64,000 nt of DNA from the NCBI GenBank assembly GCA_001803045.1, contig MHAR01000018.1:1-64000 (forward strand), in the 5' to 3' direction. The stretch comes from Ignavibacteria bacterium RIFOXYB12_FULL_35_14. GTDB lineage: Bacteria; Bacteroidota; Ignavibacteria; Ignavibacteriales; Ignavibacteriaceae. The translations under genes were made by a program, and so were the position numbers. The notes under the pieces are model-generated. The model had not been told where the DNA came from. It saw nothing but the letters and a program-made list of their open reading frames with translations, and ran no database searches. This document shows, in pieces, positions 17,016-55,717 of the stretch; within the stretch, counting starts at the first letter, position 1; each line of letters starts with the position of its first letter.

Positions 17016-17025
17016 TCAAGCAGCG

Positions 17026-25847: not shown

Positions 25848-25876
25848 TTTATTTTCTTTTAAGGAGAATATTAAGA

Positions 25877-33372: not shown

Positions 33373-33395
33373 ATTATTCGGTTAGGAGAATTACA

Positions 33396-34846: not shown

Positions 34847-36289
34847 ATGAATAGAAAAATTTTATTAATCATAGTTATAGTTTTTGCTTGCTTAATTTAT
34901 AGTTCAGCACAAACCGAAAAGCTGATGTATGATAAGCTAGAAAGACCGCAAGGAATAACTTTTTACAAAATGCCCGTCGGCTTGTGCGAGGATTATCCCG
35001 AAGAAACTACGACTATGGAAATTATCAGAAATGATTTTGAATTTCTGAAGAAGCATGACATTAAATTTATGCGTATCTCATTCGGCTGGGATGCAATTGA
35101 ATCGGAGGAAGGAAAATATAATTGGCTTTTCTGGGACGAATTTGTTCGCATGGCTGTAGATGATTACGGCATTACTTTACTTCCCTACATTTGTTACGTA
35201 CCTCAATGGATATCAACCGGTGCTAAGGATACAATGTACTTTTGGAATTATCCTCCAAAGGATAATAAACCTTGGGGCGAATTTGTAAAGTCGCTTGTAA
35301 ACAGGTATAAAAATAGAATTAAGACCTGGGAATTGTGGAATGAACCGGACATCTGGATTTACTGGCAGGGTACAAGAAAGCAATTCGTAGATTTTATGAA
35401 AGCCGGAGCAGAAGCAGTTCGTGAAGCTGATCCCACAGCAAAAATTGTTTTTCCTGGCATTGCTTACGATCCTGAATTTGTGAAAGATCTTTTTAAAAAT
35501 TGGGGTATGGGTAAATACTTCGACATTGTGAATATGCATAACTATTATGAAACCTGGCATCGTCATCCAATTGAAGAAATAACGAATTATGTAAATGAAG
35601 TTCACGATGTAGTATGGAGATACGGAAAAAATCAACCGTTATGGATGGCAGAGGTTGGCTACAGCACATTCCGTAAAGGTGCAAGAGTTTCCGATTCATT
35701 CAATGCGTATTATGATTATGAACATTCGCCAGAGTATCAGGCAGTTCATCTTTTCAAAACACTAGCTCTTGTCGCATCGACAGAAAAAGTTTCAGCAGTA
35801 GCCTGGTATGAAATTAAAGATCTACCTCCAAGTGAAAATGTAATTGGTGATAATGATAACAACCGTTACCTCGGTGTTGCATATCCCGATCATAAACCAA
35901 AGCCATCTGCTAGAGCGTTACAATTTTTCAATGAACTCTTCTCAAAAAAATACCGCAATGGAAATGACAAGTTAAAAGTTGATAGAACTGTTGGTTCAGA
36001 AACAGTGGTCAATGCTTTTGAAAATGAGGATGGGAGTTTCATTGTAACTGCTTGGATTCAGACGACTATTCCCGGTAGAACCGGCGATGACAAAAGTGGA
36101 ATGGCTAAAGATACAAGAAAAGAAACCATAGGCATTCAGCTTCTTTCGGACTTAAAAGGTGATGTAACTCTTTATGATGAATTAGGCAAAAATAAAGAAT
36201 TCAGTTTTGTCGAGAAAAAAGGTGATACATTAGTCCTAAAGGATGTAAAACTTGAAGGTGGCAAAATCGTTGTCTTTGAAATTAAATGA
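34847..36289 (+). CDS. GH39-like exported glycoside hydrolase
   Basis: This clan GH-A enzyme is exported by a signal peptide ending YSSAQ (22). Its barrel carries the acid/base Glu166 in WELWNEPD and the nucleophile Glu269 in WMAEVGYST. The layout (RISFGWDAIESEEGKYNW near 76-93, then DYGITLLPYICYVPQW) fits beta-xylosidase-like GH39 and its relatives. A small beta domain closes the 480 residues. In this locus a xylosidase or arabinosidase is plausible, but the exact bond is not determined. A CG-centred palindrome overlaps its ribosome site. Confidence 0.82.
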   Translation: MNRKILLIIVIVFACLIYSSAQTEKLMYDKLERPQGITFYKMPVGLCEDYPEETTTMEIIRNDFEFLKKHDIKFMRISFGWDAIESEEGKYNWLFWDEFVRMAVDDYGITLLPYICYVPQWISTGAKDTMYFWNYPPKDNKPWGEFVKSLVNRYKNRIKTWELWNEPDIWIYWQGTRKQFVDFMKAGAEAVREADPTAKIVFPGIAYDPEFVKDLFKNWGMGKYFDIVNMHNYYETWHRHPIEEITNYVNEVHDVVWRYGKNQPLWMAEVGYSTFRKGARVSDSFNAYYDYEHSPEYQAVHLFKTLALVASTEKVSAVAWYEIKDLPPSENVIGDNDNNRYLGVAYPDHKPKPSARALQFFNELFSKKYRNGNDKLKVDRTVGSETVVNAFENEDGSFIVTAWIQTTIPGRTGDDKSGMAKDTRKETIGIQLLSDLKGDVTLYDELGKNKEFSFVEKKGDTLVLKDVKLEGGKIVVFEIK

Positions 36290-38483: not shown

Positions 38484-39634
38484 GAAAAATTAAAACTGCT
38501 ATTATAGGCAGTGGATTTATGGGAAGTACGCACCTAGAAGCCCTTCAACGTATCGGCGGTGTTGAGGTTATTGCTCTTTCATCTGACGATCGAAAAAATG
38601 GGAAAGCCTTAGCCGATAAGTTCTCTATCAAATCTTTTACTGAGAATTGGAAAGAGGTTATCGCAAATCCCGTTGTCGAAGTAATCCATAATTGTACACC
38701 AAATCATCTGCATTTTGAGATCAATTTAGCCGCAATCAAAAATAATAAACACATCATTTCTGAAAAGCCATTGACTAATAATTCCAAGCAGTCGGTTGAG
38801 CTTCTTGAACTACTAAAAAAACATAAAGTTGTGAATGCTATTAATTTTAACTACAGATTTTACCCGCTCATCCAGCATGCAAAATCTATGGTCGAGACAG
38901 GACAAGTCGGAGATATATTTCTTGTGCATGGGAATTATTTGCAGGATTGGCTTTACTACAAAACCGATTACAACTGGAGATTAGAAAATGATTTAGGCGG
39001 TGAGTCAAGAGCCATTGCAGATATTGGTTCCCATTGGTGCGATATGGTTCAGTTTTTAATCGGTTCAAAGATCAAAAAAGTATTTGCCGATCTAGTTACC
39101 ATTCACAAACAAAGAATTAAACCTGCTGAAGCTGTTCAAACATTTAAAGGGAAAGAAGCTCGTGGGGGTATTGGAAGCGAAGTAAATATAAAAACCGAAG
39201 ATGCAGGAACAGTCCTGCTGCATTTTGAAAATGGTGCAAGGGGTGTGTTCACCGTATCGCAGGTGAGTGCAGGGAGAAAAAATCATTTTTGGTTTGAAAT
39301 TGATGGAAGCAAAAAATCATTTTCGTGGAATCAGGAAAATCCGAATGAGCTTTGGATTGGATACAGAGAAAAACCAAATGAAATTTTAATAAAAGACCCA
39401 TCACTATTAAATGAAGATGCGAGAAAATATGCCGGGTATCCCGGCGGCCATCCTGAAGGATATCCAGATGGACCCAAAAATCTTTTTACATCTGTCTATA
39501 ATTTTATTCGTGAAGGTAAGGATTCTAATAAAGACAAACCTGACTTCCCAACTTTTGAAGATGGGCATTTAGAAAATAAAATTGTTGAGGCAATACTTAA
39601 AAGTAATTACCAACAAAAGTGGATTAGTATTTAA
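38480..39634 (+). CDS. Gfo/Idh/MocA-family oxidoreductase
   Basis: This NAD(P)-dependent sugar dehydrogenase is 384 residues long. It has the N-terminal Rossmann motif AIIGSGFMGSTH (7-18), the conserved SEKPLTNN (about 94-101) and a C-terminal alpha/beta domain with ADIGSHWCDMVQFL (about 180-193). Family members oxidise or epimerise sugars, inositols or glucosides. The start overlaps the previous stop, and a sugar-phosphate-isomerase-like gene follows, a pairing common in polyol or keto-sugar pathways. The substrate is unknown. Confidence 0.9.
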   Translation: MRKIKTAIIGSGFMGSTHLEALQRIGGVEVIALSSDDRKNGKALADKFSIKSFTENWKEVIANPVVEVIHNCTPNHLHFEINLAAIKNNKHIISEKPLTNNSKQSVELLELLKKHKVVNAINFNYRFYPLIQHAKSMVETGQVGDIFLVHGNYLQDWLYYKTDYNWRLENDLGGESRAIADIGSHWCDMVQFLIGSKIKKVFADLVTIHKQRIKPAEAVQTFKGKEARGGIGSEVNIKTEDAGTVLLHFENGARGVFTVSQVSAGRKNHFWFEIDGSKKSFSWNQENPNELWIGYREKPNEILIKDPSLLNEDARKYAGYPGGHPEGYPDGPKNLFTSVYNFIREGKDSNKDKPDFPTFEDGHLENKIVEAILKSNYQQKWISI

Positions 39635-39735: not shown

Positions 39736-40662
39736 ATGAAAATAGGATTTCTAACAGCTTGCCTTCCAAATATTGAATTCGAAAAATTAGTATCCTGGTC
39801 TTCTAAGCAAGGATTCAAAACTCTTGAGCTTGCTGCCTGGCCGGTAGAATCTGATCGTGACTATCAAGCCCGGCAAATAGATGCAGCAGACTTTTCAAAG
39901 GACGATGCTTCCCGAATTAGAGATTTATTTTCCATGTATAACATGGAAATTTCTGCGATGGCATATTATGATAATAATCTCCACCCAGATTTATCGAAAA
40001 GGAATTGTTATTTAGACCACCTTAAAAAAGTAATAACTGCTGCATCATTACTCGAAGTAAAATTAGTCGGAACTTTTGTCGGCAGTAATCCCGAGCTTTC
40101 GCCAAAAGAAAATATTAGTGAGATAAAAAAAGTCTTTAGTGAACTCTTAGAATTTGCCGCTGATAGAAATATAAGTTTAATGATAGAGAATTGTCCAATG
40201 GAAAACTGGATGAGATTTGGCTTGTTGGGGAATTATGCATACTCGCCTGAACTTTGGGATGCACTTTTCAATGAATTACCAAATGCTAATTTCGGGTTGA
40301 ATCTTGATCCTTCACATCTCTACTGGCTGGGAATAGATTACATTCGCGCTGCAAAAGATTATGCTTCAAAAGTATTTCATGCCCATGCAAAAGACACGGA
40401 AATTCTAATTGAAGGAAAATATAATTATGGAATATTCGGAAGACAAGTTGATCCTGTGCCTTGGAAATCTGGCTGGTGGAGATATCGTATGCCAGGCCTT
40501 GGAGAGATAGATTGGTCTAAATTCATTTCAACGCTTCAAGAAAATGGTTATGATAATGTATTATCAATCGAGCATGAAGATCCAGTTTGGGAAGGCAGCG
40601 AGGAAAAAATAAAAACCGGTTTAGCACTCGGATTAAAGCATCTTTCACAATTTGTCGTTTGA
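39736..40662 (+). CDS. Sugar phosphate isomerase/epimerase-family TIM-barrel protein
   Basis: This 308-residue protein belongs to the AP endonuclease 2/xylose isomerase-like fold. Metal-ligand candidates are Glu in LMIENCPMENW (about 155), the Asp-His pair in NLDPSHLYW (about 196-201), FHAHAKD (about 217) and LSIEHEDP near the C-terminus. It likely isomerises or epimerises a sugar or keto-sugar together with the preceding oxidoreductase. AAAGGAGAT precedes the ATG. No signal peptide. Confidence 0.88.
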   Translation: MKIGFLTACLPNIEFEKLVSWSSKQGFKTLELAAWPVESDRDYQARQIDAADFSKDDASRIRDLFSMYNMEISAMAYYDNNLHPDLSKRNCYLDHLKKVITAASLLEVKLVGTFVGSNPELSPKENISEIKKVFSELLEFAADRNISLMIENCPMENWMRFGLLGNYAYSPELWDALFNELPNANFGLNLDPSHLYWLGIDYIRAAKDYASKVFHAHAKDTEILIEGKYNYGIFGRQVDPVPWKSGWWRYRMPGLGEIDWSKFISTLQENGYDNVLSIEHEDPVWEGSEEKIKTGLALGLKHLSQFVV

Positions 40663-40683: not shown

Positions 40684-42816
40684 ATGCAAAGCTTGCTTAA
40701 AGAAACATACATACCATTCGGCACACAATATTACAGAGCTCCTTCTCCGCATAAAAGCGATTGGAAGAAAGATCTCCGCAAAATGTCTGAACTGGGTTTT
40801 AACACAATTAAGTTCTGGGTTCAGTGGAGATGGAATAATCCTGAAGAAGGAGTTTATTACTGGAATGATATTGATGAACTGATGAATCTTGCGCAGAAGT
40901 TCAAACTTAAAGTTATGCTCAACACTATCTTTGATGTTGCACCAGCATGGATTTATAAAAAATTTTCCGATGCTTCGATGATCACATTGTCAGGTATGAA
41001 GATCGGTCCACAAACTCAGCCACACAGGCAAATCGGCGGACTTGGACATTGCTTCAATCACGATGGAGTAACTGAACATTTATTTTTTTTCTTAAGCGAA
41101 ACTGTTAATCGATACAAAGATCATCCAGCACTTGAAATATGGAACGTTGGTAGTGAACCTGAGATTACAAGCAGCATGGCTGAAATGCGCGCTTATGCTG
41201 ACGATGCTTCCAAAATTAATGATATGCTTTGTTATTGCGGCAATTGTGAAAGGAAGTTCAAATTCTGGCTCAAAGAAAAATATAATCTAATTGAGAAACT
41301 AAACATTTGCTGGAGCAGAAATTACAAATCTTTCGATGAAGTTGAACTGCCTAAAACGCGAAACACTTTTAACGATATGATCGATTGGCGGATGTTTTTT
41401 GTTCATACCCTTGGAGAGAATGTTAAAAGAAGATTTGATGTTGCTGAAGCTTTAGACAAAGGAAAACATCCTCTAATGTGCCATCATGTTTTCATTCAAG
41501 GATTTCCTGTTACTTCTAGTGCAAATGACCCATGGAATGTTGGAAGATTTGGTGACCTTCATGGATTTACGCAAATGGATGATATGGCAATGATTGACAT
41601 TTTACGTTCGTGTGCAAAAGATAAGCCTGTCGTCTCTGCCGAAATGTTGATGCTCCCTGGTTACACCCTTGATCTTCCTAAAACAATTGATAGTTATGAT
41701 ATTAAAAAATTTATTTTCTCTGGTGTAGCAGGAAATCTGAAAGGATTTATTAATTGGCAGTACCGTCCGGAAATTTTAGGTCGAGAAGCTCCAACTTGGG
41801 GTTTGACCTTTCTTGACGGCACAGAAACCTCGTGGTTAAAAGCTTTTGCTGAATGCGGAAGTATCTTACAGAAAAATGCAGATTTCATTTTAGATGCCAA
41901 GCCAAGAAAAGCAGAAGTCGCAATTCTTTATAATCCGGAAAATCAAATTTTCGCATGGGTGTCTACAGGAAATGAAAAGACAGCGACCGATTCATTGCTT
42001 GGTTTTCACCACGCATTGTATGAAAGGAATTTTATTATTGATTTTATTCATCCCATCGAGTTTGAAAAAAATATTCTCGATAATTATAAAGTTCTGGTCA
42101 TTCCATTTCCTTACCTCATAAATCGCAAGATCGCAGATAAGATAATCGAATGGGTTGAAAATGGCGGAGTACTGCTCTGCGAAAGCTATACAGCCGGTTG
42201 GAATATCGAAAACGGTCATCATGAAAAAGTGGTGCCAGGTTATGGTTTGGATAAAATATTTAAAGTGAAGCAATCAGTAGTTGAATCTGCTGCTAACGGA
42301 GAAACTCACATAATTTTAGATATTGATCTGCCATACCTGATAAAAAATCAGTCAGTAAAGTGTTTGCTCGTAAAAGAAACCTTTTTTAATAATGGAGCTG
42401 AAGTTCTCGCAACATTTGATTCGGGAGAGCCGGCAGTATTTCTTTCACATTATGGCAAAGGAAAAGCAATTCAGATCGGTTCCTACGTTGCAATGACTTA
42501 CCACCGAAACAAAGAATCAAATAATGGAAATTTTCTTGCCGGATTAGTTGAATATGTTGCCGGTATTTCAAAACCGACCATTTCTGAAGATAAAAAAGTG
42601 AGAGTTGACATACTCAAAAAGTATGAGGAGAAAATGTTAATTATCCAGAATCTTGAGCATGAAATTGTTGATGTTGAAATAAAAATTCCCAATGAAAAAA
42701 TAGAATCATTGAGTGAACAGTTTTCAAATGAACAATTTAAATGCAAAACATTTGATTCAAGCACAGTCTTTCGAATGGATCTTAAGCCAAGAGAAGTAAG
42801 AGTGTATCGTGGGTAG
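40684..42816 (+). CDS. GH42-like beta-galactosidase, cytoplasmic
   Basis: This 710-residue enzyme shows the GH42 plan: TIM barrel (1-390), trimerisation domain (about 410-630) and a C-terminal beta domain. The predicted acid/base is Glu158 in IWNVGSEPE; the residue before it is Ser where the family normally has Asn. The nucleophile candidate is Glu320 in VVSAEMLM. Cys183, Cys185 and Cys188 (CYCGNC) match the zinc site of some family members. No signal peptide is present, so it acts on imported beta-galactosides or related arabinosides. The next gene, an MFS importer, overlaps it by 8 bp. Confidence 0.87.
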   Translation: MQSLLKETYIPFGTQYYRAPSPHKSDWKKDLRKMSELGFNTIKFWVQWRWNNPEEGVYYWNDIDELMNLAQKFKLKVMLNTIFDVAPAWIYKKFSDASMITLSGMKIGPQTQPHRQIGGLGHCFNHDGVTEHLFFFLSETVNRYKDHPALEIWNVGSEPEITSSMAEMRAYADDASKINDMLCYCGNCERKFKFWLKEKYNLIEKLNICWSRNYKSFDEVELPKTRNTFNDMIDWRMFFVHTLGENVKRRFDVAEALDKGKHPLMCHHVFIQGFPVTSSANDPWNVGRFGDLHGFTQMDDMAMIDILRSCAKDKPVVSAEMLMLPGYTLDLPKTIDSYDIKKFIFSGVAGNLKGFINWQYRPEILGREAPTWGLTFLDGTETSWLKAFAECGSILQKNADFILDAKPRKAEVAILYNPENQIFAWVSTGNEKTATDSLLGFHHALYERNFIIDFIHPIEFEKNILDNYKVLVIPFPYLINRKIADKIIEWVENGGVLLCESYTAGWNIENGHHEKVVPGYGLDKIFKVKQSVVESAANGETHIILDIDLPYLIKNQSVKCLLVKETFFNNGAEVLATFDSGEPAVFLSHYGKGKAIQIGSYVAMTYHRNKESNNGNFLAGLVEYVAGISKPTISEDKKVRVDILKKYEEKMLIIQNLEHEIVDVEIKIPNEKIESLSEQFSNEQFKCKTFDSSTVFRMDLKPREVRVYRG

Positions 42817-44086
42817 GTTTTTGCATTCAAAACATTTTGATGATATAGTTGTTAAAAGAAATTTTTACTTGAATCTTTTTGATGGAGCACTATTCTCGCT
42901 TGCAATGAGTTTTGTATCTCTCCAAACGGTATTCCCGGTACTCATAAAAAAAATTTCTGAAAGCGATTTTGCAATAGGGCTTATCCCTGTGATTTGGGCT
43001 GGCGGATTTAATTTCCCCCAAATTCTAATAGCTAATTATGTTAGAAAAATTGGGTATAAAAAATCCTTTATGCTGAAAACTGCATTAGGACAACGACTGC
43101 CGTGGTTGTTCATAGCAGTTTTAGTTTATTTTTTCATCGAGCGACTAAATCCGAATATTGCGTCAGTGCTAATTTTATCAAGCCTCGGATTTGCAGCAAT
43201 TGGAGGGAGCTTAAACCTCCCGGGATGGTTTGATCTTATTTCAAAATTAACGCATGTTAATTTACGGGGAAGGCTGTTTGCTTATCGTTCCGTTGTTGGT
43301 GCAATTTTAGGTGTAATAGGTGGTACGATCGTGATAATTATATTGAACACATTTCCTTATCCCAAGAATTTTGGAATTTTATTTTTCCTTACGTTCATTG
43401 TAATGATGATGTCTTATGTGTTTTTACTATTCTTAAAAGAGGAAACGCCAAATCCTTCACCGCTGTTGTTTGGTCATAAAGAATATGTTAAGCGATTGTT
43501 TTCAATTCTTAAAAAGGAAAAGAATTTTAGAAATTTTCTTGTATCCGATTCATTAATGATTCTTGCAAATATCTGCAGTGCATTTTTTGCCGTTTATGCA
43601 ATCGAAAAATTTTCGCTGGCGGATAGTTATGCCGGAACTTTTACCATAGTAATGATGATAAGCATGATTATTGGAAGCATCTATTTCGGCTACATCGCTG
43701 ATAGATATGGACACAAGATAAACCTTGTGTGGGCTTCGGCTTTTACAGGGATTGCATGTTTGATTGCACTGGTATCTCCAATTGTTGAATTGTTTTATTT
43801 TGTGTTCGTTGGTTCTGCATTGAATTTATCTTTACAGATGGTATCGCGCTTGACAATAGTTGCGGAAATATGTTCCGAAGAAGACAGACCAACCTATGTT
43901 GCTTTGACCAACCTTGTCACCGCTCCATTTGTCTTGTCTGGAATTTTCGGAGGAATCATTGTTCATAACTTCGGTTTTGAAACTTTGTTCATCGTGTCAT
44001 TTCTTTTTTCGCTTTCAACATTTTTGTGGCTGCTTTTTAAAGTCGATGAACCTCGAAAATTTTCTTTCATGGCTCAATCAAAATAA
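42809..44086 (+). CDS. Major facilitator superfamily transporter
   Basis: This inner-membrane transporter has 425 residues and about 12 hydrophobic segments. It starts at GTG 42809 inside the end of the GH42 gene, which indicates translational coupling. The cytoplasmic loop motif YIADRYGHKINLVWA (about 295-309) is the MFS signature of the second half. I infer that it imports the disaccharide split by the GH42 enzyme. Sugar specificity is not evident. Confidence 0.87.
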   Translation: MGRFLHSKHFDDIVVKRNFYLNLFDGALFSLAMSFVSLQTVFPVLIKKISESDFAIGLIPVIWAGGFNFPQILIANYVRKIGYKKSFMLKTALGQRLPWLFIAVLVYFFIERLNPNIASVLILSSLGFAAIGGSLNLPGWFDLISKLTHVNLRGRLFAYRSVVGAILGVIGGTIVIIILNTFPYPKNFGILFFLTFIVMMMSYVFLLFLKEETPNPSPLLFGHKEYVKRLFSILKKEKNFRNFLVSDSLMILANICSAFFAVYAIEKFSLADSYAGTFTIVMMISMIIGSIYFGYIADRYGHKINLVWASAFTGIACLIALVSPIVELFYFVFVGSALNLSLQMVSRLTIVAEICSEEDRPTYVALTNLVTAPFVLSGIFGGIIVHNFGFETLFIVSFLFSLSTFLWLLFKVDEPRKFSFMAQSK

Positions 44087-44103: not shown

Positions 44104-45789
44104 ATGAGTTTGATATCAAGAAGAAGCTTTCTAAAAAATACTGCGATAGTTGGTACCGGCAGTATTTTAGCATCAAATTCCTTTCTTACCTTACCTGAGC
44201 TTCTCCTTAAAAAAAGCGTAAATAAAAATACAGCTAAGGGAGAATTACTTTTTATTCCGCATTATGTTCAAAAAGGCAGAGGTCCTCATTTATACGAACT
44301 AGCATGGGCGACAGATAACGAGTGGGAACCGTTTTATTCCGATATCAAGATTGAAGAAAGGGGAGTAAGGATATCCGACTCTAAAAATGTTGAAAGATTC
44401 GGTATCAACGCTAGATGGAATGTTGAAGGATTTGGCTGGACAAATATTACGGCTGATAACGGCGGTGAATTTTATTCCCTTCCCTCCTCCGGTAAAACTA
44501 AATCCTTAAATCTAAATTATGAGTTATGCAAAAGTCGAGTGCTGAGAAACAGAAATCGTTTGAAAAATCTGCAAAAAAATGGCTGGCTTCCCTCATCAGA
44601 AGTTAAAATGTTTGTAAACCTTTCCGAACAATTTCTTGAAGACGCGGCGAAAATAAAGAATGATGATGTGAACTGCGCTAACTTTGCACAGAGTGGTCTT
44701 AATTATGCACTGTGGGCGAGTGAAAAAATGGAGCTTGAAAAAGCGAAGCATGATATTACACTCAAAGGAAAACGTGATGATTTTTTCTTTGGTTGCGATG
44801 CCAGAAGTTTTTATCAAATGTATCAGGATACTTTTTTGGAATTGTTCAGTGAGCTGTTTGACTATGCCAACATCACGTTTGTTGTCAAAGGCGATGGTAT
44901 GATGTCGGATTATCAAAAATCTCCAGGAGTCATACAACCTGAAACAAGAGAATTGCTTATAAGAAAACTTAATGAACGTGGAATAAAATGTCAGGAGCGT
45001 TTACTTTTCTGGTTTCATGATTGCTGTATTCCCAATTGGCTTCGGGATATGAAATACGATGATCTTCTCAAGTATGCAGAAAAGTTAACTTATGATACAA
45101 TGAAGCATTTTGGCGATTTGCTTTATGCGATGGAAGTTGTAAATGAACTTCACGATTGGGCTAATGAGCTTCAGCTAAGTCCCGATCAAATAACCGAACT
45201 TACAAGGCTTATAAATGATGTTGCAAAATCTGTTGCTCCTAACGTAAAAAGAACAATAAACAATTGTTGTCCTTTTGCTGAATATGTGCAGCTAAATTCT
45301 TATTCTAAACGAAAAGCAATTTTCCCGCAGAGAAGTCCGTTCAAGTTTACTAAAAATCTTATAGAAGCAGGAATAGATTTCGATATTCTTGAACAGCAAA
45401 TGTATTTTCCGTATAGGGATTTACAAGATTCTGTGCTGCTACTTGAGAAATTATCAACACTTGGTAAACCGATGCAGCTTTCTGAAGTTGGAGTGCCCGG
45501 TGGTCCCTCAAATTACTCTGTGAAAAATAATACCATCCCGATTTCGAAAGAACCTTACTTGTGGCATCAACCATGGAATGAGCACACGCAGGCAGATTGG
45601 CTTGAAGATATTTACACATTGGCTTACAGCAAATCGTTTATTCACGCAGGTAACTGGTTCGATTTTGTTGATCCATATTATTTTATGGAAAACGGCGGAC
45701 TGCTTCGCTCTCCGAAAGGTGAAAAGAAAGAAACATTTCATCGATTAAAAAAAATTCAGAAAAACTGGAACATGCTTTCCCCAAAATAA
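44104..45789 (+). CDS. GH10-like xylanase paralogue 1, Tat signal
   Basis: This is the first of five tandem divergent GH10 genes. The N-terminus SRRSFLKN (5-12) plus a hydrophobic stretch is a twin-arginine signal, so the folded enzyme is exported. Residues 45-225 are a shared N-terminal region with a conserved DNGGEFYSLP patch and a long helical part. The GH10 barrel (about 228-560) has acid/base Glu348 (VVNELHDW) and nucleophile Glu461 (LSEVGV). The GH motif histidine is replaced (QERLLFW at 297-303) and the usual His after strand 6 is Tyr (QQMYF, 431-435). Endo-xylanase is the family default; the substrate may differ. Confidence 0.87.
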   Translation: MSLISRRSFLKNTAIVGTGSILASNSFLTLPELLLKKSVNKNTAKGELLFIPHYVQKGRGPHLYELAWATDNEWEPFYSDIKIEERGVRISDSKNVERFGINARWNVEGFGWTNITADNGGEFYSLPSSGKTKSLNLNYELCKSRVLRNRNRLKNLQKNGWLPSSEVKMFVNLSEQFLEDAAKIKNDDVNCANFAQSGLNYALWASEKMELEKAKHDITLKGKRDDFFFGCDARSFYQMYQDTFLELFSELFDYANITFVVKGDGMMSDYQKSPGVIQPETRELLIRKLNERGIKCQERLLFWFHDCCIPNWLRDMKYDDLLKYAEKLTYDTMKHFGDLLYAMEVVNELHDWANELQLSPDQITELTRLINDVAKSVAPNVKRTINNCCPFAEYVQLNSYSKRKAIFPQRSPFKFTKNLIEAGIDFDILEQQMYFPYRDLQDSVLLLEKLSTLGKPMQLSEVGVPGGPSNYSVKNNTIPISKEPYLWHQPWNEHTQADWLEDIYTLAYSKSFIHAGNWFDFVDPYYFMENGGLLRSPKGEKKETFHRLKKIQKNWNMLSPK

Positions 45790-45799
45790 GACTAGATTC

Positions 45800-47512
45800 A
45801 TGAAAAGAAGAGATTTTATAATTAAATCATCGTTGGCTGGAGCGGGAGTCGCATTAGCTGCAAATTCTGTTTTTGCAGCACCTACAATTTTTACAAAGCG
45901 CAAAACTTTTTTGAACACCGAAAAGGGCGAACTCATTTTTAAACCTTACTTTGTTCAAAAAGGTAGTGGTCCTCATCTCGGATCAATCAAATCATTCGAA
46001 ACGATCGGTCCTGCAGAATGGGATTTTCCAAGCTGGGCATTTGCAAGTGATACCGATTGGGATGCTTTTTATTCAAACATTTTTGCCACACAAGATGGAA
46101 TCAAAATTTCAGATACGAATTGTAAAGAAAAGTTTGGAATAAATGTAAGGTGGAACGTTGAAGGATTTGGTTACATATACATGACTGCGGATAATGCTGG
46201 CGAATTTTATGAACTGCCCGCTGCTGGAAAGCAGAAAATCCTAAATCTGAATTTTGAACTCGCCAAATCAAGAGTTGCAAAAAACCGTGAAAGAATAAAT
46301 CAGTTTAGTAATGAAGGGTGGGAACCCTCCAGAGATCTTAAGCCGTTTCTCGATCTTTCTGAAGAATATCTGTTTGATGCTGTGAAAGCCGAAAGTGACG
46401 TAGATAAATGTGCAAGATTGTCGCAAAGTTCTCTTTACTATTCGATGTGGGCAGGTGAAAAAATGGAACTCGAAAAAGCTTGGTTTGATAATGCAAAGAA
46501 TGAATTCAGAGAAAAATTTTTTATCGGATGCGACACGAAATGTTTTGGCAGAATGGATACAAATGTGTTTATGGATTTATTTACTGAAATTTTTAACTAC
46601 GCAACAATTATACACTACTTGCCGACTTTTCAGAAAGAAGAAAATGTTTACACTTATGGTAACCGTGATGAACAAATTCAGTTGTTAAGAAAAAAAGAGG
46701 TCACGGTCGAAGGCAGACCAATCTTTTGGGCTGATGAATGCTGTACTCCGGATTGGTTGATTAATAAAAGTTTTTCGGAAATTTTAAAATATGTCGAACG
46801 CCATACACGAGAAGTAGTCAGTCACTACGGCGATGAAATGTATGCTTGGGAGATTATAAATGAAGCACATGATTTTGGAAATGTTCAGAAACTGCTTCCC
46901 GAACAGTTGGTAGAAATCGCAAAATTAATTGCCGATGTTGCAAAGGATACAAATCCTAAAGTACATCGCTTAATAAACAACTGCTGCATCAATGCAGATT
47001 ATGTTCAGATATGGATGCCCAAGGAATCTTATAAAAGCACACAAATTGTAACTCCCCATCAATTCATTAAAATGTGTTATGAAGCCGGAGTAGACTTTAC
47101 AATCACTGGGCAGCAGCTTTATTATCAATATACGAACAGAGATATTGCTGATACTATTCGAATGATTGAGCGGCTAAAGAAATTTGGAAAACCTGTGCAG
47201 ATAACTGAGATTGGCACAACATCCGGACCCACGAAAGAAACTGTTGAATCGGGTAAGTATGAATTACCCAGCCGTCCTTATAGCTGGCATAGAGAATGGG
47301 ATCAGGATCTTCAGGCAGAATGGCTTGAACAAATTTATACAGTTTTATACAGCAAACCATGGATTGAAGCGATAAATTGGTATGATTTTGTTGATCCGTA
47401 TTCATTCATCCAGAACGGTGGTTTGTTAGCAAATCCCGAAGGTGAAAAAAAGGAAGCATATCATCGTTTGAAAAAGTTAAAAGAAAATTGGAAACAAAAT
47501 TCTAAAAAATAA
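45800..47512 (+). CDS. GH10-like xylanase paralogue 2, Tat signal
   Basis: This second paralogue (570 residues) begins 10 bp after the first. KRRDFIIKSS gives a twin-arginine signal with likely cleavage after FAA (27). The N-terminal region includes a small insertion near 61-78 absent from the other copies. Catalytic residues are Glu355 (EIINEAHDF) and Glu470 (QITEIGT). EGRPIFW (304-310) replaces the GH motif, and GQQLYY (437-442) lacks the usual His. A cysteine pair NNCC (393-396) is shared by all five copies. Confidence 0.87.
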   Translation: MKRRDFIIKSSLAGAGVALAANSVFAAPTIFTKRKTFLNTEKGELIFKPYFVQKGSGPHLGSIKSFETIGPAEWDFPSWAFASDTDWDAFYSNIFATQDGIKISDTNCKEKFGINVRWNVEGFGYIYMTADNAGEFYELPAAGKQKILNLNFELAKSRVAKNRERINQFSNEGWEPSRDLKPFLDLSEEYLFDAVKAESDVDKCARLSQSSLYYSMWAGEKMELEKAWFDNAKNEFREKFFIGCDTKCFGRMDTNVFMDLFTEIFNYATIIHYLPTFQKEENVYTYGNRDEQIQLLRKKEVTVEGRPIFWADECCTPDWLINKSFSEILKYVERHTREVVSHYGDEMYAWEIINEAHDFGNVQKLLPEQLVEIAKLIADVAKDTNPKVHRLINNCCINADYVQIWMPKESYKSTQIVTPHQFIKMCYEAGVDFTITGQQLYYQYTNRDIADTIRMIERLKKFGKPVQITEIGTTSGPTKETVESGKYELPSRPYSWHREWDQDLQAEWLEQIYTVLYSKPWIEAINWYDFVDPYSFIQNGGLLANPEGEKKEAYHRLKKLKENWKQNSKK

Positions 47513-47550
47513 TATATCAGAAATTTAATCATGTAATCAGCGGAGATAAG

Positions 47551-49104
47551 ATGTCAACCGAAAAAGGCACCTTGATATTCAAACCATATTTTATTCAACG
47601 CGGAGTTGGTCCAAATCTTTTGAATTGGGCTTATGCTTGCGATGCGAACTGGGATGCATTCTTTTCAAACATCACTTCTAACAATGATGGAGTAGTTATT
47701 TCGGATGCATTCGATATTGAAAAATTTTCAATTGAAGTGAGATGGAACGTTGAAGATTTCGGATACATTTTCATTTCTGCCGATAACGGTGGAGAATATT
47801 ATCAGCTTCCACCTTCAGGTAAAACAGAGATTTTGAATTTGAATTTTGAACTCGCTAAGAGCCGTGTCTACCGTAACAGAAGACGAATTGAAAAACATAA
47901 ATCCGGTGGATGGATTCCTTCCTATGAAGTTATGTCATTCGTTCATCTTTCGGAAGAATTGTTCTCTGATGCCGAAAGAATGCAGAATACAAAAGAGAAA
48001 TGTGCTGAGCTTTCTCAAAAAAGTTTATTGTACGCCATGCATGCAAGTGAGAAGATAGAACTTGAGAAAGCAAAGCACGATATATTAAAAAATCAAACTA
48101 GAAAAGATTTCTTCATCGGCTGCGATGCCCGCGGATTTTATCAAATGGATCCGGAATTGTTTTTAGATCTTTTCACTAAACAATTTAATTATGCTACTAT
48201 CACATATTACCAAATAAGCGGAAACTACAGAGACTTTGAAGCTGTTGAAGGTGATCTTCAGTTTGCAACAAGAGATGTTGTATTTAATGAATTGAAAAAG
48301 AATAATATCACAGTGGAAGGTCGACCTTTGTACTGGCCTTACAAAACAGTTACGCCCGATTGGATGAGAAACAAGACTTATGATCAATTATTAAAATACA
48401 TTGAAAAACATAGTCGTGAAGTTGTTAGCCATTACGGTGATGGAATGTATGCTTGGGAGATAGTAAACGAATCGCATGATTGGGCAAATGAGACTCAGTT
48501 AACACCTGAACAGATAACTAATATTACAAAACTTGCCTGCCAGGTTGCAAAAGATACAAATCCAAAAGTTCATCGATTAATTAATAACTGCTGTCCTTTT
48601 GCAGAATATGTTCAGCTTAAAAAGTGGGGTGAACTTGATGCAAAATATCCCCAGCGAACACCTATAAAGTTTATGCAGGACTTAGTCGATCACGATGTAG
48701 ACTTTACAATATCCGGCCAGCAGATGTACTTTCCGTATCGAGATCTTGCCGATACAATAATTCACGTTGAACGTTATGAAAAATTTGGAAGACCTGTGCA
48801 GCTTACAGAAGTCGGTGCATCATCAGGTCCAAGCAAGGCATCAATTGATAATGGTTCACTTGAAATTTCAACTGAACCGTACATTTGGAGAAGAAATTGG
48901 GATCAGGAATTACAAGCTGACTGGCATGAAGAACTTTACACGATAGCATACAGCAAAAAATGGATTGAAGCTGTAAATTGGTATGATTTTGTTGATCCTC
49001 ATTCGTGGATTAAGAATGGCGGTTTGCTTGAATCTTCTAAAGGTGAAATAAAAGCTGCTTATGACAGACTGCTGAAACTTCAGCAAAGTTGGGGGCTGAA
49101 ATAA
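47551..49104 (+). CDS. GH10-like xylanase paralogue 3, no signal peptide
   Basis: This paralogue (517 residues) begins directly with the N-terminal region (MSTEKGTLIFKPYFIQRG), so it should stay in the cytoplasm. AGCGGAGAT precedes the ATG, which supports this start. Catalytic Glu307 (EIVNESHDW) and Glu420 (QLTEVGA) are kept. EGRPLYW (256-262) and GQQMYF (389-394) show the same loss of active-site histidines. Loss of the leader relative to paralogues 1 and 2 suggests a shift to imported oligosaccharides. Confidence 0.87.
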   Translation: MSTEKGTLIFKPYFIQRGVGPNLLNWAYACDANWDAFFSNITSNNDGVVISDAFDIEKFSIEVRWNVEDFGYIFISADNGGEYYQLPPSGKTEILNLNFELAKSRVYRNRRRIEKHKSGGWIPSYEVMSFVHLSEELFSDAERMQNTKEKCAELSQKSLLYAMHASEKIELEKAKHDILKNQTRKDFFIGCDARGFYQMDPELFLDLFTKQFNYATITYYQISGNYRDFEAVEGDLQFATRDVVFNELKKNNITVEGRPLYWPYKTVTPDWMRNKTYDQLLKYIEKHSREVVSHYGDGMYAWEIVNESHDWANETQLTPEQITNITKLACQVAKDTNPKVHRLINNCCPFAEYVQLKKWGELDAKYPQRTPIKFMQDLVDHDVDFTISGQQMYFPYRDLADTIIHVERYEKFGRPVQLTEVGASSGPSKASIDNGSLEISTEPYIWRRNWDQELQADWHEELYTIAYSKKWIEAVNWYDFVDPHSWIKNGGLLESSKGEIKAAYDRLLKLQQSWGLK

Positions 49105-49128
49105 TTTATAAAACGAAAGAGATAATAA

Positions 49129-50673
49129 GTGTCTAAAGGAAAAATATTATTCAAACCATACTTTGTTCAAAAAGGAAAAGGACCTCATCTTTTTGATTTT
49201 GTTATGACTCTTGATGAAAGTGGAGATGCATTTCATTCAGATATCATTGTTACCACTGAGGGAATAGTGATAGGCAATACGGAAGGTAAAGTTAAATTTT
49301 CAATAAGTGTTCGATGGAATGTTGAGGGATATGGATATTTGTTCATTCCTGCTGATAACAAGGGAAAGCATTATGAACTTCCAAAATCTGGCACACTTGA
49401 GTTCAGCCTTAACTATGAATTAGCTAAGACAAGAGTTTATCGCAACAAAAGGAGAAGAAACAAATTCGAAAAAGACGGTTGGAAGCCTTCAGTTGAATTG
49501 AAACATCATCTTGAATTATCGGAAGAGCTTCTCAACGACGCAAAGAAATTTGAACAATCGAAATATCAATGTGCAGAATATTCTCAAAAGTCATTGGTCT
49601 ATTCAACTATTGCAAGTGAGATGATGGAAATTGAAAAAGCCAGATTTGATATTTCAAAAAACGGAAAGCGACCTGGTTTTTATTTTGGATGTGATTCTCG
49701 AGGTTATTTTCAAATGGAATCACCAGAACTTTTTATGGAACGATTTACAGAAGCTTTCAACTATGCTACTGTAACCCATTATCTTAAAGGTGACTTCATT
49801 GATTTCGAACCTGAAGAAGGAAACAAAAAGTTCAGTGAGCGTTCGAAGATGATTAAGGAGTTGAGGCAAAATAGAATCACTGTTGAAGGAAGACCATTAT
49901 TCTGGACTCACACCTGGGTGACACCTGATTGGCTCAAGAAAAAATCATTTTCTGAACTCTTAAAATATGTTGAGAAGCATGTTCGCCAGGTTGTCGGCTT
50001 TTATAAGGATGAAATTGAAGTCTGGGAGGTAGTGAATGAAATGCATGATTGGGCAAATGAAGTTCAGTTAAACCACGAACAAACAATTGAGTTGACAAAA
50101 CTTGCCTGTGATGTTGCAAGAGATACAAATCCTAAAGTCAGATTGCTCATTAATAACTGTTGCCCTTTTGCAGACTATGTTCAAAAAGGAATGTGGTATG
50201 AAATTCCCGCAAAGTTTCCCCAGAGAACTCCACATCAATTCACAAAGCAGATAATTGAAGCCGGTGTTGATTTCGATATAATTGGTGTGCAGGTTTACTT
50301 TGTTCACAGAACTCTGACTGAAACTTTGCAATCAATTGAAAGATATGAAGGAATGGGTAAAGCTGTCCAACTCGCTGAAATTGGATCCACCTCTCACGGT
50401 ATCACTCAGGAATTTACAGAGCCGGATGAAGACTTTAGCACAAAGCCATATGAATGGAGAAGACACTGGGATGAAGAACTTCAGGCCGATTGGCTTGAAA
50501 GTATATTCACGTTCGCATATAGTAAAAGATTTATTGAAGCAGCAAATTGGTATGATTTTGTTGATCCATTTGGTTTTCTGAAAAAGGGAGGAATTTTAAG
50601 ATCGCCTAAGGGAGAAAAGAAAGCTGCATTTGATCGTTTGATAAGTTTAAAAGAAAAATGGAATTCACTTTAA
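49129..50673 (+). CDS. GH10-like xylanase paralogue 4, no signal peptide
   Basis: This paralogue (514 residues) uses GTG 49129 and also lacks a leader. Catalytic Glu304 (EVVNEMHDW) and Glu417 (LAEIGS) are present. EGRPLFW (253-259) and GVQVYF (386-391) lack the two usual histidines. The segment after the nucleophile (STSHGITQEF) differs from the SSGP(T/S) of copies 2, 3 and 5, so its substrate cleft may differ. Confidence 0.87.
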   Translation: MSKGKILFKPYFVQKGKGPHLFDFVMTLDESGDAFHSDIIVTTEGIVIGNTEGKVKFSISVRWNVEGYGYLFIPADNKGKHYELPKSGTLEFSLNYELAKTRVYRNKRRRNKFEKDGWKPSVELKHHLELSEELLNDAKKFEQSKYQCAEYSQKSLVYSTIASEMMEIEKARFDISKNGKRPGFYFGCDSRGYFQMESPELFMERFTEAFNYATVTHYLKGDFIDFEPEEGNKKFSERSKMIKELRQNRITVEGRPLFWTHTWVTPDWLKKKSFSELLKYVEKHVRQVVGFYKDEIEVWEVVNEMHDWANEVQLNHEQTIELTKLACDVARDTNPKVRLLINNCCPFADYVQKGMWYEIPAKFPQRTPHQFTKQIIEAGVDFDIIGVQVYFVHRTLTETLQSIERYEGMGKAVQLAEIGSTSHGITQEFTEPDEDFSTKPYEWRRHWDEELQADWLESIFTFAYSKRFIEAANWYDFVDPFGFLKKGGILRSPKGEKKAAFDRLISLKEKWNSL

Positions 50674-50691
50674 TTAGCACCGGAGGTATTG

Positions 50692-52344
50692 ATGAACGGT
50701 ATTGACAGAAGAAAATTTTTAAGAGCATCCGCACTCGGTGCAGTAGCAGTTGCCACGGCTCCAATAATGTCGAGGTTTGGAAACATTATTGCCTCGAGCA
50801 AAGGTGGTGGAATAATTCAGCCATATCCTCATCCATGGATGCCCAAGATTGAGTTTGTATATCTAACAGATCAAAATGAGGATCCGTTCAAGTCAGGTAT
50901 TCAAGTTACTCAAGAGGGAATTAAGCTTCCCGATGATCTTGGTGATAAAAAATTTGGAATTAACTCGCGCTGGTTTATTGAAGGATTTGGTTTTGTATAC
51001 TTGACTGCTGATAATGGCGGTGAACACTTTTCATTGAAAGAAGTTCAATCAAGAGAAAAACTAAATTTAAATTACGAATATGCTAAAAGCCGCGTAGTAC
51101 GAAATCGAAAAGTAAAAGAGAGATATTCAAAATCAGGAACTCTTTTTTCCCGCGAAGTAAATCATCTCATTAATTTATCTGAAGAATTATTTGATGATGC
51201 CGCTAAAAAGCAAAATGATACTGAACGCTGTGCTGATTATTCTGATAGAGCACTAAAGTATGCATTGATAGTCGGTGAAAAAATAGAACTTGAACATGCA
51301 AAAAGTGAAATTATAAGACAAAATAGAAAAGATAAAGTTCACTTCGGCTGTGAAAGCAGGCAATTAATTTGGGCCCAATCGGAAGGATTCACAAAGCGCT
51401 TTCCTGAATTATTTAATACGGCAACAGTTACACACTATGTTTGGGATTCCTGGTATCAGCTTTTCGAGCCGACAGAAGGAAATTATAATTGGGGCGTGAA
51501 GGATGATATTGTGAATTTTTTAATGAAACATAAAATCAGTATCGAAGGTCGTCCTTTATTTTGGTTTCACCCAACTGTCACACCGGACTGGTTAAAACAA
51601 AAAAGTTTTTCCCAATTAAAAAGTTATATGGAAAAGCATGTCTATGATCTTGTAAATCATTACGGTGATAAAGTGCTCGAATGGGAAGTGATGAATGAAT
51701 ATCATGATTGGGCAAACATTTTTAACCATTCTGTAGATGAAATAACAGAAATAACAAGATTGGCTTTTGAGAGGACAAAGGAAGTAAATCCTAATGTTAA
51801 GAGAATTTCAAATAACTGCTGTCTCTGGGGCGAATATGCTGCAAGAGGGAGAATGGCTAGGATGGATGCGACGCGTCCTCTTCGTACTGCGAGAAAATAT
51901 GTTGAAGATATTCTTAATGCTGGAGTTGAATTAGATATCGTAGGAATTCAAATCTATTTTCCTCAGAGGGAACTGTCGGATATCGTAAGAATGGTTGAGC
52001 GATTTGAAAAGTTTAGAAAACCAATTTACATTACAGAGATTGGTGCATCATCAGGACCAACTAACGAAACAGTTTTTAATGGATCACAAAAAATTCCAAC
52101 TAACCCATACGATTGGAGAAGACCTTGGGATGAAGAACTTCAAGCAGACTGGCTTGAGGAAGTTTATACCATTTATTACAGCAGACCGTTAATTAAAGCA
52201 ATCAACTGGTATGACTTTTCAGATTTCCGTCCGTTCATAGTCAATGGTGGAATTGTCAGAGAAGATACTTCACCTAAAATGTCATTTGACAGATTAAAAA
52301 ATTTATTGAACAATTGGAATAGATTACCGGGAAAGGAACTTTAA
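50692..52344 (+). CDS. GH10-like xylanase paralogue 5, Tat signal
   Basis: ATG 50692 has GGAGG 5 bp upstream; a TTG one codon earlier is unlikely. DRRKFLRAS (5-13) followed by a hydrophobic stretch is a twin-arginine signal. This copy (550 residues) is the closest of the five to textbook GH10: YQLFEPTEGNYNW (255-267) matches the helix that closes the substrate cleft. It has Glu336 (EVMNEYHDW) and Glu449 (YITEIGA), again with EGRPLFW and GIQIYF. It is the last of the tandem set. Confidence 0.88.
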   Translation: MNGIDRRKFLRASALGAVAVATAPIMSRFGNIIASSKGGGIIQPYPHPWMPKIEFVYLTDQNEDPFKSGIQVTQEGIKLPDDLGDKKFGINSRWFIEGFGFVYLTADNGGEHFSLKEVQSREKLNLNYEYAKSRVVRNRKVKERYSKSGTLFSREVNHLINLSEELFDDAAKKQNDTERCADYSDRALKYALIVGEKIELEHAKSEIIRQNRKDKVHFGCESRQLIWAQSEGFTKRFPELFNTATVTHYVWDSWYQLFEPTEGNYNWGVKDDIVNFLMKHKISIEGRPLFWFHPTVTPDWLKQKSFSQLKSYMEKHVYDLVNHYGDKVLEWEVMNEYHDWANIFNHSVDEITEITRLAFERTKEVNPNVKRISNNCCLWGEYAARGRMARMDATRPLRTARKYVEDILNAGVELDIVGIQIYFPQRELSDIVRMVERFEKFRKPIYITEIGASSGPTNETVFNGSQKIPTNPYDWRRPWDEELQADWLEEVYTIYYSRPLIKAINWYDFSDFRPFIVNGGIVREDTSPKMSFDRLKNLLNNWNRLPGKEL

Positions 52345-52356
52345 ACCGAGCTTTAT

Positions 52357-54693
52357 ATGATTCTTTATTTCAGAATATTTTTCCTATTTATTCTATTTGC
52401 AGCCAATCTGTTTGCGCAGAGCATTACAATAAATAAAAAAGATGCTGAAGTTTGGTCAACTTCTCAGGTTATAAAAGGAAGATTAAAGGATTTCTATTCA
52501 GCAACTGGAACGCTTTATCGGAATAACACACCTATTGACTTCAACATTTCGTCACAAGATAATTCATTTGCAGTTCCGATTATTGTAGATGAAGGAGCGA
52601 ACAGCATTCTTGTTGAAGTTGAATCTGTCCTTTCCGATACTTTGCATCTTCATCTTGCATATGACATTCATCCTGAAATTTATGCTTTTGCAGAAGTCAG
52701 TAGTTTTATTATAACCTTGAAAGCACAAACTATTGAAAATCCAAAATCCGAAAAGCTGAATTATTCATGGATTGCCGATGAAAATAATCCAGCGGTTGTA
52801 AGCATTGTGAACGGTAGCGATTCAATAGCTTCTGCATTGTTCAGTGTAGGTATACCGGAGGGTGAGTATTATTTTGATGTGCTTGTAACAACATCATCAA
52901 ACGATACAACTAAAGCAAGAACGTTTGTTACTTTAAAAAATGATGTTATCACTCCTTTTAAAATAACAACCGATTATGCAACATGGATTGATTCTGCAAT
53001 AATTTATGAGATCACTCCATACATATTTGTGAACAATGGAAAGTTTAATAACATCACAACAAAAATTCCTGACCTTGTAAGACTTGGTGTTAATTCTATC
53101 TGGATACAACCAATATACTCCACATATTATGGCGGGCAGGGATATGATATTGTTGATTACTTTAATGTTCGATCAGATTTAGGAACGGAGCAGGATCTTA
53201 GAAACCTGATTCAAACAGCAAAAGCTAATGGATTAAAAGTATTGTTTAACTTTGTTCCTAATCACTCATCAATTCAACATCCTTATGCTAAAAATTCTAC
53301 TCTGTATGGAACTAACTCTCACTACTGGGATTTCTATCAACGTGAAACTGATTCTGCTCCTTATTCCCAACATTATCATTTCTATCAAGGATTTATTAAC
53401 TATTTCTGGAATGATCTGCCAAATTTAAATTTCAATAATCCTGAAGTTCATAAATGGATAACTGAAGCAGCAAAATACTGGATTGAAAAATTTGATATTG
53501 ATGGGTATCGGTTTGATGCTGTATGGGGAGTAACAGCACGCAATTCTCAATTCACAAAAGATCTTCGACTTGCATTAAAGAGAATCAAACCGGAAATATT
53601 AATGCTTGCAGAAGATAAAGCTTCTCAAGAACAGGTGTTTGATGAGAGATTTGATGTGGCCTTTGACTGGGCTCCAAATGAAGTTTGGGTTTCGCAATGG
53701 ATGTGGCAGACAATTTATAATCCAAGCACCAATCCTACTATCTTTAATTTTAGTAACCAGAATCAAAGATCATCTCGGTTAAGAAATGCTTTAACCAATT
53801 ATGGGAATGGTTTTGCAGAGAATTCCAAAATCCTCCACTTTATGACCAACAACGACGTGTTTTATTTTGTAACTCACCACGGAGTTGAAAGAACTAAGAT
53901 GGTTAGTGCACTCATGTTCGCACTTAATGGAATTCCATTAATATATAATGGTCTTGAAATCGGGAAAAGCGGGCATCCCTATTCAACTGAATTTATTTTC
54001 TTTCCTGGCTTACCAATTGATTACGACGACCCGGACAAATTTTTTCCTTATTTCCAGTACCTGATCCACTTAAGAAAATCATATCCTGCACTCAGAAGTG
54101 ATAACTTTGCTGAAATCACAGTTAGTCCGTCTTCTTATGTATTTGGATTCAGAAGGTGGCTTGGGGAGCAGAACCTGTTTACTGTGCTAAATATGGGTGC
54201 CTCGGCAACAAACGTTACAATCAATCTTCCAATCAAAGATTTAAATTTTGATACCACAATTACTTATTATTTAACCGATTTGATCAGTGGTGAAGTTATC
54301 CCAGGAACTCTAAGCGAGCTGGAACAATTTTCAACCGTGATGAATCAACACAGCGCTAAAATTTATTCACTTGCGGATACGATTGTAGTAGTCGGGTTTC
54401 AGGATGAAATTGCACAAGATTTTCTTCCGGATGAATTCGAGCTTGAGCAAAACTTCCCCAATCCGTTTAACCCAATTACGAATATTTCCTATTCCATTTC
54501 TTCTCAAGGAAAAGTTGATCTGATAGTTTATGATATACTTGGAAGGGGAATTCAATCAATTGTTAGCGAAGTTCAAGCGCCTGGCAAACATCGGGTAACT
54601 TTTGATGGCAGTAAATTATCCAGCGGAATCTATTTCTATCGTTTAATTTTTAATGGAGGTTCAATAATTAAAAAAATGACGTTGATCAAATAA
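52357..54693 (+). CDS. Secreted GH13 alpha-amylase-family enzyme with type IX sorting domain
   Basis: This 778-residue exported enzyme has a signal peptide ending LFAQ (21), an N-terminal beta-sandwich (about 25-200) and the GH13 barrel. Catalytic residues are nucleophile Asp387 (DGYRFDAVW), acid/base Glu419 (MLAED) and Asp500 (TNND, where most members have NHD). The C-terminus (about 690-778) is a type IX sorting domain: LEQNFPNPFNPITNI, then GIYFYRL. It should act on alpha-glucans outside the cell. It is the only alpha-glucan enzyme in a locus otherwise aimed at beta-linked glycans. Confidence 0.9.
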   Translation: MILYFRIFFLFILFAANLFAQSITINKKDAEVWSTSQVIKGRLKDFYSATGTLYRNNTPIDFNISSQDNSFAVPIIVDEGANSILVEVESVLSDTLHLHLAYDIHPEIYAFAEVSSFIITLKAQTIENPKSEKLNYSWIADENNPAVVSIVNGSDSIASALFSVGIPEGEYYFDVLVTTSSNDTTKARTFVTLKNDVITPFKITTDYATWIDSAIIYEITPYIFVNNGKFNNITTKIPDLVRLGVNSIWIQPIYSTYYGGQGYDIVDYFNVRSDLGTEQDLRNLIQTAKANGLKVLFNFVPNHSSIQHPYAKNSTLYGTNSHYWDFYQRETDSAPYSQHYHFYQGFINYFWNDLPNLNFNNPEVHKWITEAAKYWIEKFDIDGYRFDAVWGVTARNSQFTKDLRLALKRIKPEILMLAEDKASQEQVFDERFDVAFDWAPNEVWVSQWMWQTIYNPSTNPTIFNFSNQNQRSSRLRNALTNYGNGFAENSKILHFMTNNDVFYFVTHHGVERTKMVSALMFALNGIPLIYNGLEIGKSGHPYSTEFIFFPGLPIDYDDPDKFFPYFQYLIHLRKSYPALRSDNFAEITVSPSSYVFGFRRWLGEQNLFTVLNMGASATNVTINLPIKDLNFDTTITYYLTDLISGEVIPGTLSELEQFSTVMNQHSAKIYSLADTIVVVGFQDEIAQDFLPDEFELEQNFPNPFNPITNISYSISSQGKVDLIVYDILGRGIQSIVSEVQAPGKHRVTFDGSKLSSGIYFYRLIFNGGSIIKKMTLIK

Positions 54694-54697
54694 GCCG

Positions 54698-55717
54698 ATG
54701 CATATCTTGATAATTGGCGGAACTGGATTTATAAGCAGCAGAATTGCTGAAAAGCTTTTAGCCAAAGGTTACAACCTTACTTTGCTCAATCGAGGTATTA
54801 CTAGAAGTACTTTGTTGCATAATAAAAATTTAAGTTTTGTACATGGTGATAGGAACGATAGAAGAATGTTGTCAGAGTTGGCTTCAAAGAATAAGTTTGA
54901 TGTTGTCTATGATATGATCGCATATAACGAGAATGATTCTCAAATGGCGGTCGATGCATTCAAAAATAAAATAGGGCGATTTATTCATTGCAGCACAATT
55001 TCTGTTTATATGCTGGCGAAAGAAGTAAGACTGCCAGTTACTGAAAATCAAATAAATCTTCCGCTGATGGAGCATTTTCCAAGAAGTCCATTTGGGTGGG
55101 ATTATGGAAGCAGCAAAATAAAATGTGAAAATATTTTATGGAAACATCACGATGATAAAAGTTTCCCGGTTAGTATGCTGAGACCGGCTTATGTTAGCGG
55201 ACCGAAAGATCCGGCATGGAGAGATTGGTTCTGGATTGAGAGAATCCTTGATGGGAATCCTTTGCTTGTTCCAGGCGATGGTAACTTTAAGTTTCAGCAG
55301 GTTTATATCGAAGATGCTGCGGAAGCTTTTTGTAAAGTAATTGAGACAGATAAATCAATGGGTGAAGCTTACAATGTTGCCGGCGAAGAAGTATTCACTC
55401 TTAATGGATATCTTGCCCGATTAATGAAACTGCTGAATAAATCTTCAGAAGTATTTCATATCGACCAGGAATCGTTTGATGGGTTAGAGATAAGCTATTC
55501 GGGAGAAGGCGATGTGTTTACATTCAACACGCAGCGAGATGCAGTGTTTAATCTCGATAAAATAAAATCTCATCTCGGTTTTTCAACTACTCCTTTTGAC
55601 GACTATATGAGAATTACAATCGATTGGTTTTCGAATAATCATAAAAAACATTCAATCGGTTATTCAAGAAGAGATGAGGAAATAAAAATCATTAAATCAC
55701 TAAAGGTTAATGCTTAA
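54698..55717 (+). CDS. NAD-dependent epimerase/dehydratase-family protein
   Basis: This extended short-chain dehydrogenase (339 residues) has the Rossmann motif GGTGFIS (7-13) and a YGSSK active site (about 131-135). Family members epimerise or dehydrate nucleotide sugars. It starts 4 bp after the amylase stop and its end overlaps the GH2 gene, so it is part of the same transcript. The substrate cannot be told. Confidence 0.87.
   Translation: MHILIIGGTGFISSRIAEKLLAKGYNLTLLNRGITRSTLLHNKNLSFVHGDRNDRRMLSELASKNKFDVVYDMIAYNENDSQMAVDAFKNKIGRFIHCSTISVYMLAKEVRLPVTENQINLPLMEHFPRSPFGWDYGSSKIKCENILWKHHDDKSFPVSMLRPAYVSGPKDPAWRDWFWIERILDGNPLLVPGDGNFKFQQVYIEDAAEAFCKVIETDKSMGEAYNVAGEEVFTLNGYLARLMKLLNKSSEVFHIDQESFDGLEISYSGEGDVFTFNTQRDAVFNLDKIKSHLGFSTTPFDDYMRITIDWFSNNHKKHSIGYSRRDEEIKIIKSLKVNA

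Follow-up and report, generated by a model that had tools for sequence, protein, structure and literature searches.

A conserved array of five GH10-like genes with mixed export signals in an Ignavibacteria genome, and its possible role in two compartments

How did one genome come to carry five GH10-like genes in a row, some with an export signal and some without, and what might such a set of enzymes do? The question is raised by a stretch of 64,000 nucleotides (hereafter the window) from contig MHAR01000018.1 of Ignavibacteria bacterium RIFOXYB12_FULL_35_14, where five intact ORFs of this kind follow one another on the plus strand at 44104-52344, separated by gaps of 10, 38, 24 and 15 bases (Table 1).

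Table 1. Features of the array and its surroundings in the window (counts of loci include the window itself)
Feature	Position	Strand	Remarks
GH39-like enzyme	34847..36289	+	Sec-type signal; nearest solved structure PslG; 10 loci
DUF6259 putative glycosidase	36798..38483	+	no signal; 11 loci
Gfo/Idh/MocA-type dehydrogenase	38480..39634	+	nearest levoglucosan dehydrogenase, below cut-off; 9 loci
Xylose-isomerase-like TIM-barrel protein (sugar isomerase/epimerase type)	39736..40662	+	conserved in 17 loci
GH42-like enzyme	40684..42816	+	no signal; conserved in 17 loci
MFS transporter	42809..44086	+	directly upstream of array; conserved in 16 loci
GH10-like copy 1, class A	44104..45789	+	561 aa; Tat signal SRRSFLK
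GH10-like copy 2, class B	45800..47512	+	570 aa; Tat signal KRRDFII
GH10-like copy 3, class C	47551..49104	+	517 aa; no signal
GH10-like copy 4, class D	49129..50673	+	514 aa; GTG start; no signal
N-terminal region of copy 4	49135..49662	+	beta-sandwich of about 90 residues and three helices
GH10-like copy 5, class E	50689..52344	+	551 aa; TTG start, second codon ATG; Tat signal DRRKFLR; most divergent class
GH13 enzyme	52357..54693	+	Sec-type signal and T9SS sorting tail; conserved in 17 loci
NAD-dependent epimerase/dehydratase-family protein	54698..55717	+	conserved in 19 loci
Xylulokinase	61966-63498

Five ancient classes kept together in one array

The five copies are 40-55% identical to one another over about 510-550 residues and can be aligned end to end except for their signals, all having an N-terminal region of about 176 residues ahead of the GH10 barrel. 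ORFs, Pfam matches and alignment confirm in this respect the original prediction, which had described five intact genes of one architecture. It had also attributed them to expansion by tandem duplication, and here the phylogeny gives a different answer. Scanning contigs with a profile of the five copies gave 32 loci and, from these, 86 near-full-length relatives (the window's five included). Each window copy falls in a separate class of the 86-row tree, A to E, with strong support for B, D and E and, over eight core rows, for A, class C being a looser set defined as the remainder. Depending on the class, members come from Ignavibacteriota, KSB1, Neomarinimicrobiota/Fidelibacterota, Bacteroidota-labelled bins, Calditrichota, Rhodothermota or Acidobacteriota. 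The usual class order elsewhere is A-C-B-D-E, with B and C swapped in the window, and D stands before E.

The five copies are thus ancient classes kept together rather than a recent local expansion. Homologues in tandem and in one orientation are what a recent, lineage-specific amplification would leave behind, with signals that drifted and carry no functional meaning, but such an origin is extremely improbable: forcing the five window copies into a clade of the 45-row tree lowers the log-likelihood by 1097 (p-AU 6e-6), the closest counterparts in other genomes have 65-79% identity as against the values given above for the window paralogues, and the catalytic residues are invariant (see below). 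A recent expansion by tandem duplication is therefore not borne out, the copies representing five old classes with cross-phylum orthologues. That they belong to distant classes had been foreseen as a sign of separate acquisitions; the distance is real, but separate acquisitions do not fit an array that behaves as a unit within a conserved locus. What seemed a local duplication is a conserved multi-phylum module.

This module is patchily distributed. In a sample of the phylum the family occurs in 6 of 296 genomes, each with five copies; in the order it occurs in 13 of 164, nine of these having five copies and the others two, three and, in two cases, partial sets. The N-terminal region was not found in a genome of the same genus. 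Such a distribution suggests that the locus is transferred or lost as a unit.

Fold, active site and N-terminal region

As proteins, copies 2-5 score above the Pfam GH10 cut-off (E 2e-22 to 3e-17), copy 1 reaching 22.0 against a cut-off of 22.1 bits (E 1e-4); in the genome search all five lie above it, and the 4.1 Mb genome has no GH10 matches besides them. The model of copy 4 (pLDDT 93.8) consists of a beta-sandwich followed by three helices and a barrel, and its top 50 structure matches consist entirely of GH10-fold structures and of designs built on that fold. The barrel is closest to AcXyn10A (PDB 8b73; Z 30.5, rmsd 2.7 over 308 residues) and also matches Thermotoga maritima Xyn10B (1vbr; Z 28.1). 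Both catalytic glutamates, Glu348 and Glu461 in copy 1 numbering, are invariant in all 86 relatives, as is the N347-E348 pair that holds the acid/base after strand 4; the nucleophile E461 sits on strand 7. With the catalytic residues invariant throughout (86/86), the possibility that some copies are dead paralogues was ruled out. Two cysteines are likewise found in all 86 relatives, one at the end of barrel strand 1 (GC) and the other the first Cys of an NNCC motif on barrel strand 5.

The surroundings of the active site are less like those of a xylanase. Glu43, Asn44, Lys47, His80 and His205 are residues that we take to bind xylose in subsites -1/-2 or to tune the nucleophile, and the family does not retain this set. 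In the family profile, His80 is replaced by Arg relative to both T. maritima Xyn10B and AcXyn10A, and His205 by Tyr relative to Xyn10B (each in 86/86); Glu43-Asn44 of Xyn10B become Thr-His, and the Lys47 position varies among the five copies. R299 and Y434 (copy 1 numbering) are invariant in all 86; an Arg and a Tyr close to the nucleophile are common among other clan GH-A families. A literature search for papers naming GH10 His80/His205 gave no match. Since the xylan-binding residues are replaced, xylan is unproven as a substrate, and we therefore label the family GH10-like and assign it no substrate. Xylan and glucuronoxylan, earlier named as substrates to assay, are no more than suggested by the GH10 match.

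The classes differ around a common catalytic centre. Class-specific positions are enriched in loops of the catalytic face (21 of the 35 top positions, compared with 87/214; p 0.014; Mann-Whitney p 3e-4), a clustering that favours differing specificities, with the caveat that greater variation in loops would be expected of any family.

A separate model of the N-terminal region has a pLDDT of 95.2, and the region was seen in this GH10-like family only. For 69 family members Pfam gave no consistent match, and neither sequence nor Foldseek comparison with the PDB gave a significant one; the best VIA structure match has a Z of 6.9, but a weak or absent match does not prove a new fold. We also considered a known carbohydrate-binding module, for which these searches returned no matching family.

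Export signals across the classes

Signals were called from a twin-arginine motif together with hydrophobicity. Copies 1, 2 and 5 have an RR motif followed by a hydrophobic stretch, with copy 5 alone matching the NCBIfam Tat model (19.4 vs 16.7 bits), and the genome encodes TatC. Copy 4 is directly preceded by in-frame TAA TAA before its GTG start, and copy 3 could be extended upstream by at most about 15 codons, none of which gives RR, so neither has space for a hidden signal. A frameshift or mis-called start was likewise rejected as the reason for the missing signals: besides the in-frame stops, orthologues of copy 4 are never tagged, and L002_11688, to which copy 3 is most closely related, is untagged as well. 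N-terminal motifs, upstream stops and orthologues together uphold the original prediction that copies 1, 2 and 5 have twin-arginine signals and copies 3 and 4 none.

The classes differ in how steadily they keep a signal. Class D lacks it in 17 of 17 members, which makes its untagged state ancient. Class B is tagged in all nine readable members, class A in all but three Neomarinimicrobiota, and class E in 21/21 if two rows (L024 and L028) that have the RR motif but fall below the hydrophobicity threshold are counted. Class C is mostly Tat-tagged, so that the loss in copy 3 is younger; copy 3 and L002_11688 are sisters in the 86-row tree, a pairing that the 45-row tree does not resolve. The distribution of signals requires at least five changes of export state. 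One gain seems to have left a trace in a KSB1 locus, where L005:9995-11692 is an apparent fusion of a class C Tat signal with the body of an untagged class C-type copy (83% identical to L004_11707 and 73.5% to L004_9995), an in-frame ATG and part of the former leader being retained inside the protein (GGAAATAATATGTCAAAATCAAC). Signals can thus move via fusion of neighbours, and the earlier idea that export signals were lost and gained holds on both counts, by the loss in the class of copy 3 and the gain in this fusion.

So does the idea of one family with mixed export state, as 15 of the 17 arrays visible from end to end combine tagged and untagged copies, contributed by different classes, a pattern suggesting that both states are selected for. 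The untagged copy belongs to class D in most arrays and to class C in L004, L014 and L019, where D is absent; the L005 and L008 arrays hold tagged copies only. Class D proteins are more charged and have fewer N/Q/S/T residues (p about 0.01), a small shift, with other classes differing in single measures, which may lean weakly towards a cytoplasmic location. Cysteine count, tried as a marker of compartment, showed no difference.

The locus and what it may do

Several neighbours of the array recur with it (Table 1). A URO-D-family gene, missing from the window, adjoins it in 14 loci, and a ureidoglycolate-lyase-like gene is a neighbour in nine. Downstream of class E in L019, L029 and L031, the URO-D-family gene adjoins one for a B12-binding corrinoid protein, L019 having an MtaB-type methanol methyltransferase as well; these genes may point to a substrate with methyl groups. 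Farther from the array are GH106, a TonB receptor, an ABC sugar transporter, ribokinase, ribose pyranase and xylulokinase. Ribokinase and D-ribose pyranase (32452-33797), a LacI/RbsR-like regulator (12769-13818) and a nucleoside-hydrolase-like gene found outside the window (L077:3489-4379) and again in other loci suggest that ribose takes part in the metabolism. A 394-aa protein (58475-59659), kept in four of these loci, has no Pfam, NCBIfam or PDB match, and long ORFs between transporter and receptor genes (16999-18366 and 25844-28108) have no Pfam match above cut-off, the former having a sub-threshold GWxTD match. GH13, GH39 and GH2 have export signals, the GH42-like and DUF6259 enzymes none, a mixture that, together with the MFS transporter, fits cutting both outside and inside the cytoplasm.

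We give about an even chance to a reading, drawn from gene content and signals, in which the array serves the two-compartment hydrolysis of one non-standard glycan by specialised GH10-like enzymes. It would supply the endo-acting enzymes at the heart of an ancient glycan-utilisation locus of patchy distribution, namely five retaining hydrolases that share the two catalytic glutamates but differ in their cleft loops, each class acting on its own position or decoration of a single non-standard polysaccharide. Classes A, B and E (and C in most relatives) would be exported folded via Tat to the periplasm, while class D, and here also C, would be cytoplasmic and cut imported oligosaccharides, plausibly brought in by the adjoining MFS transporter; the products could then pass to the GH42-like and DUF6259 enzymes, the dehydrogenase and the isomerase. 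Counting against two compartments, a missing signal does not exclude Tat export within a complex, and in L005 and L008 every copy of the array is tagged.

The liveliest rival to the two-compartment reading is that untagged copies bind tagged paralogues through the N-terminal region and are co-exported as putative hetero-oligomers, all five enzymes being periplasmic. Folded complexes do pass Tat, with hydrogenase 2 and PaoABC as precedents (PMC4273604); arrays with an untagged copy and both ends in view always hold a tagged one, the family-specific N-terminal region could be an oligomerisation module, and the use of Tat by glycoside hydrolases without evident cofactor is suggestive. Yet we consider co-export unlikely, as class E occurs without D in L005, L008, L014 and L019 and D without E in L018, D is not bound to one partner class, its composition leans cytoplasmic, and the L005 fusion shows an untagged body able to acquire its own signal. 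A more elaborate version, with a new N-terminal module by which untagged C and D hitchhike with A, B or E in a multi-specific periplasmic complex acting on a substrate beyond known GH10, seems quite improbable. It is also rather unlikely that the array is simply a set of five endo-beta-1,4-xylanases in periplasmic and intracellular forms, as in bacteria that pair both GH10 types. The Pfam matches and fold, the xylulokinase and documented pairs such as Xyn10A/Xyn10B of Caldicellulosiruptor kronotskyensis (PMC4761950) speak for it; against it are the replacement of His80 and His205 and the loss of Glu43/Asn44 in every class, and a locus whose scanned genes have no Pfam match to alpha-glucuronidase or arabinofuranosidase and which has GH106, GH39 (PslG-like), GH13, GH2 and GH42 instead.

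Annotation would name 'xylanase' five times here, probably wrongly. The arrays form a natural series for studying one enzyme family split between two compartments, a series that shows gain and loss of signals, among them the relic of a signal captured by fusion, and they allow Tat co-export to be tested directly for a non-redox enzyme.

A search of the open-access literature for this combination found nothing on it; the exported GH10 described in the genome paper of Melioribacter roseus (PMC3534657) is a canonical one from a xylan cluster and does not correspond to this array. To the xylanases AcXyn10A and T. maritima Xyn10B the array proteins are alike in the barrel over about 300 residues, both catalytic glutamates, the Asn before the acid/base and the Gln203 and Trp84 positions; they differ in the extra 176-residue N-terminal region and in an identity of 20-25%. 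The Caldicellulosiruptor pair and the intracellular IXT6 (2q8x) offer the parallel of exported and intracellular GH10 enzymes in one organism acting on the same substrate, but the former are canonical xylanases, whereas the array has up to five co-linear classes of one architecture and uses Tat. In hydrogenase 2 (HybOC) and PaoABC, tagged and untagged proteins are encoded side by side, as in the array, and the untagged subunits ride Tat with tagged partners; those are cofactor-bearing redox enzymes whose complexes have been shown, whereas in the array the untagged proteins are paralogues of the tagged ones.
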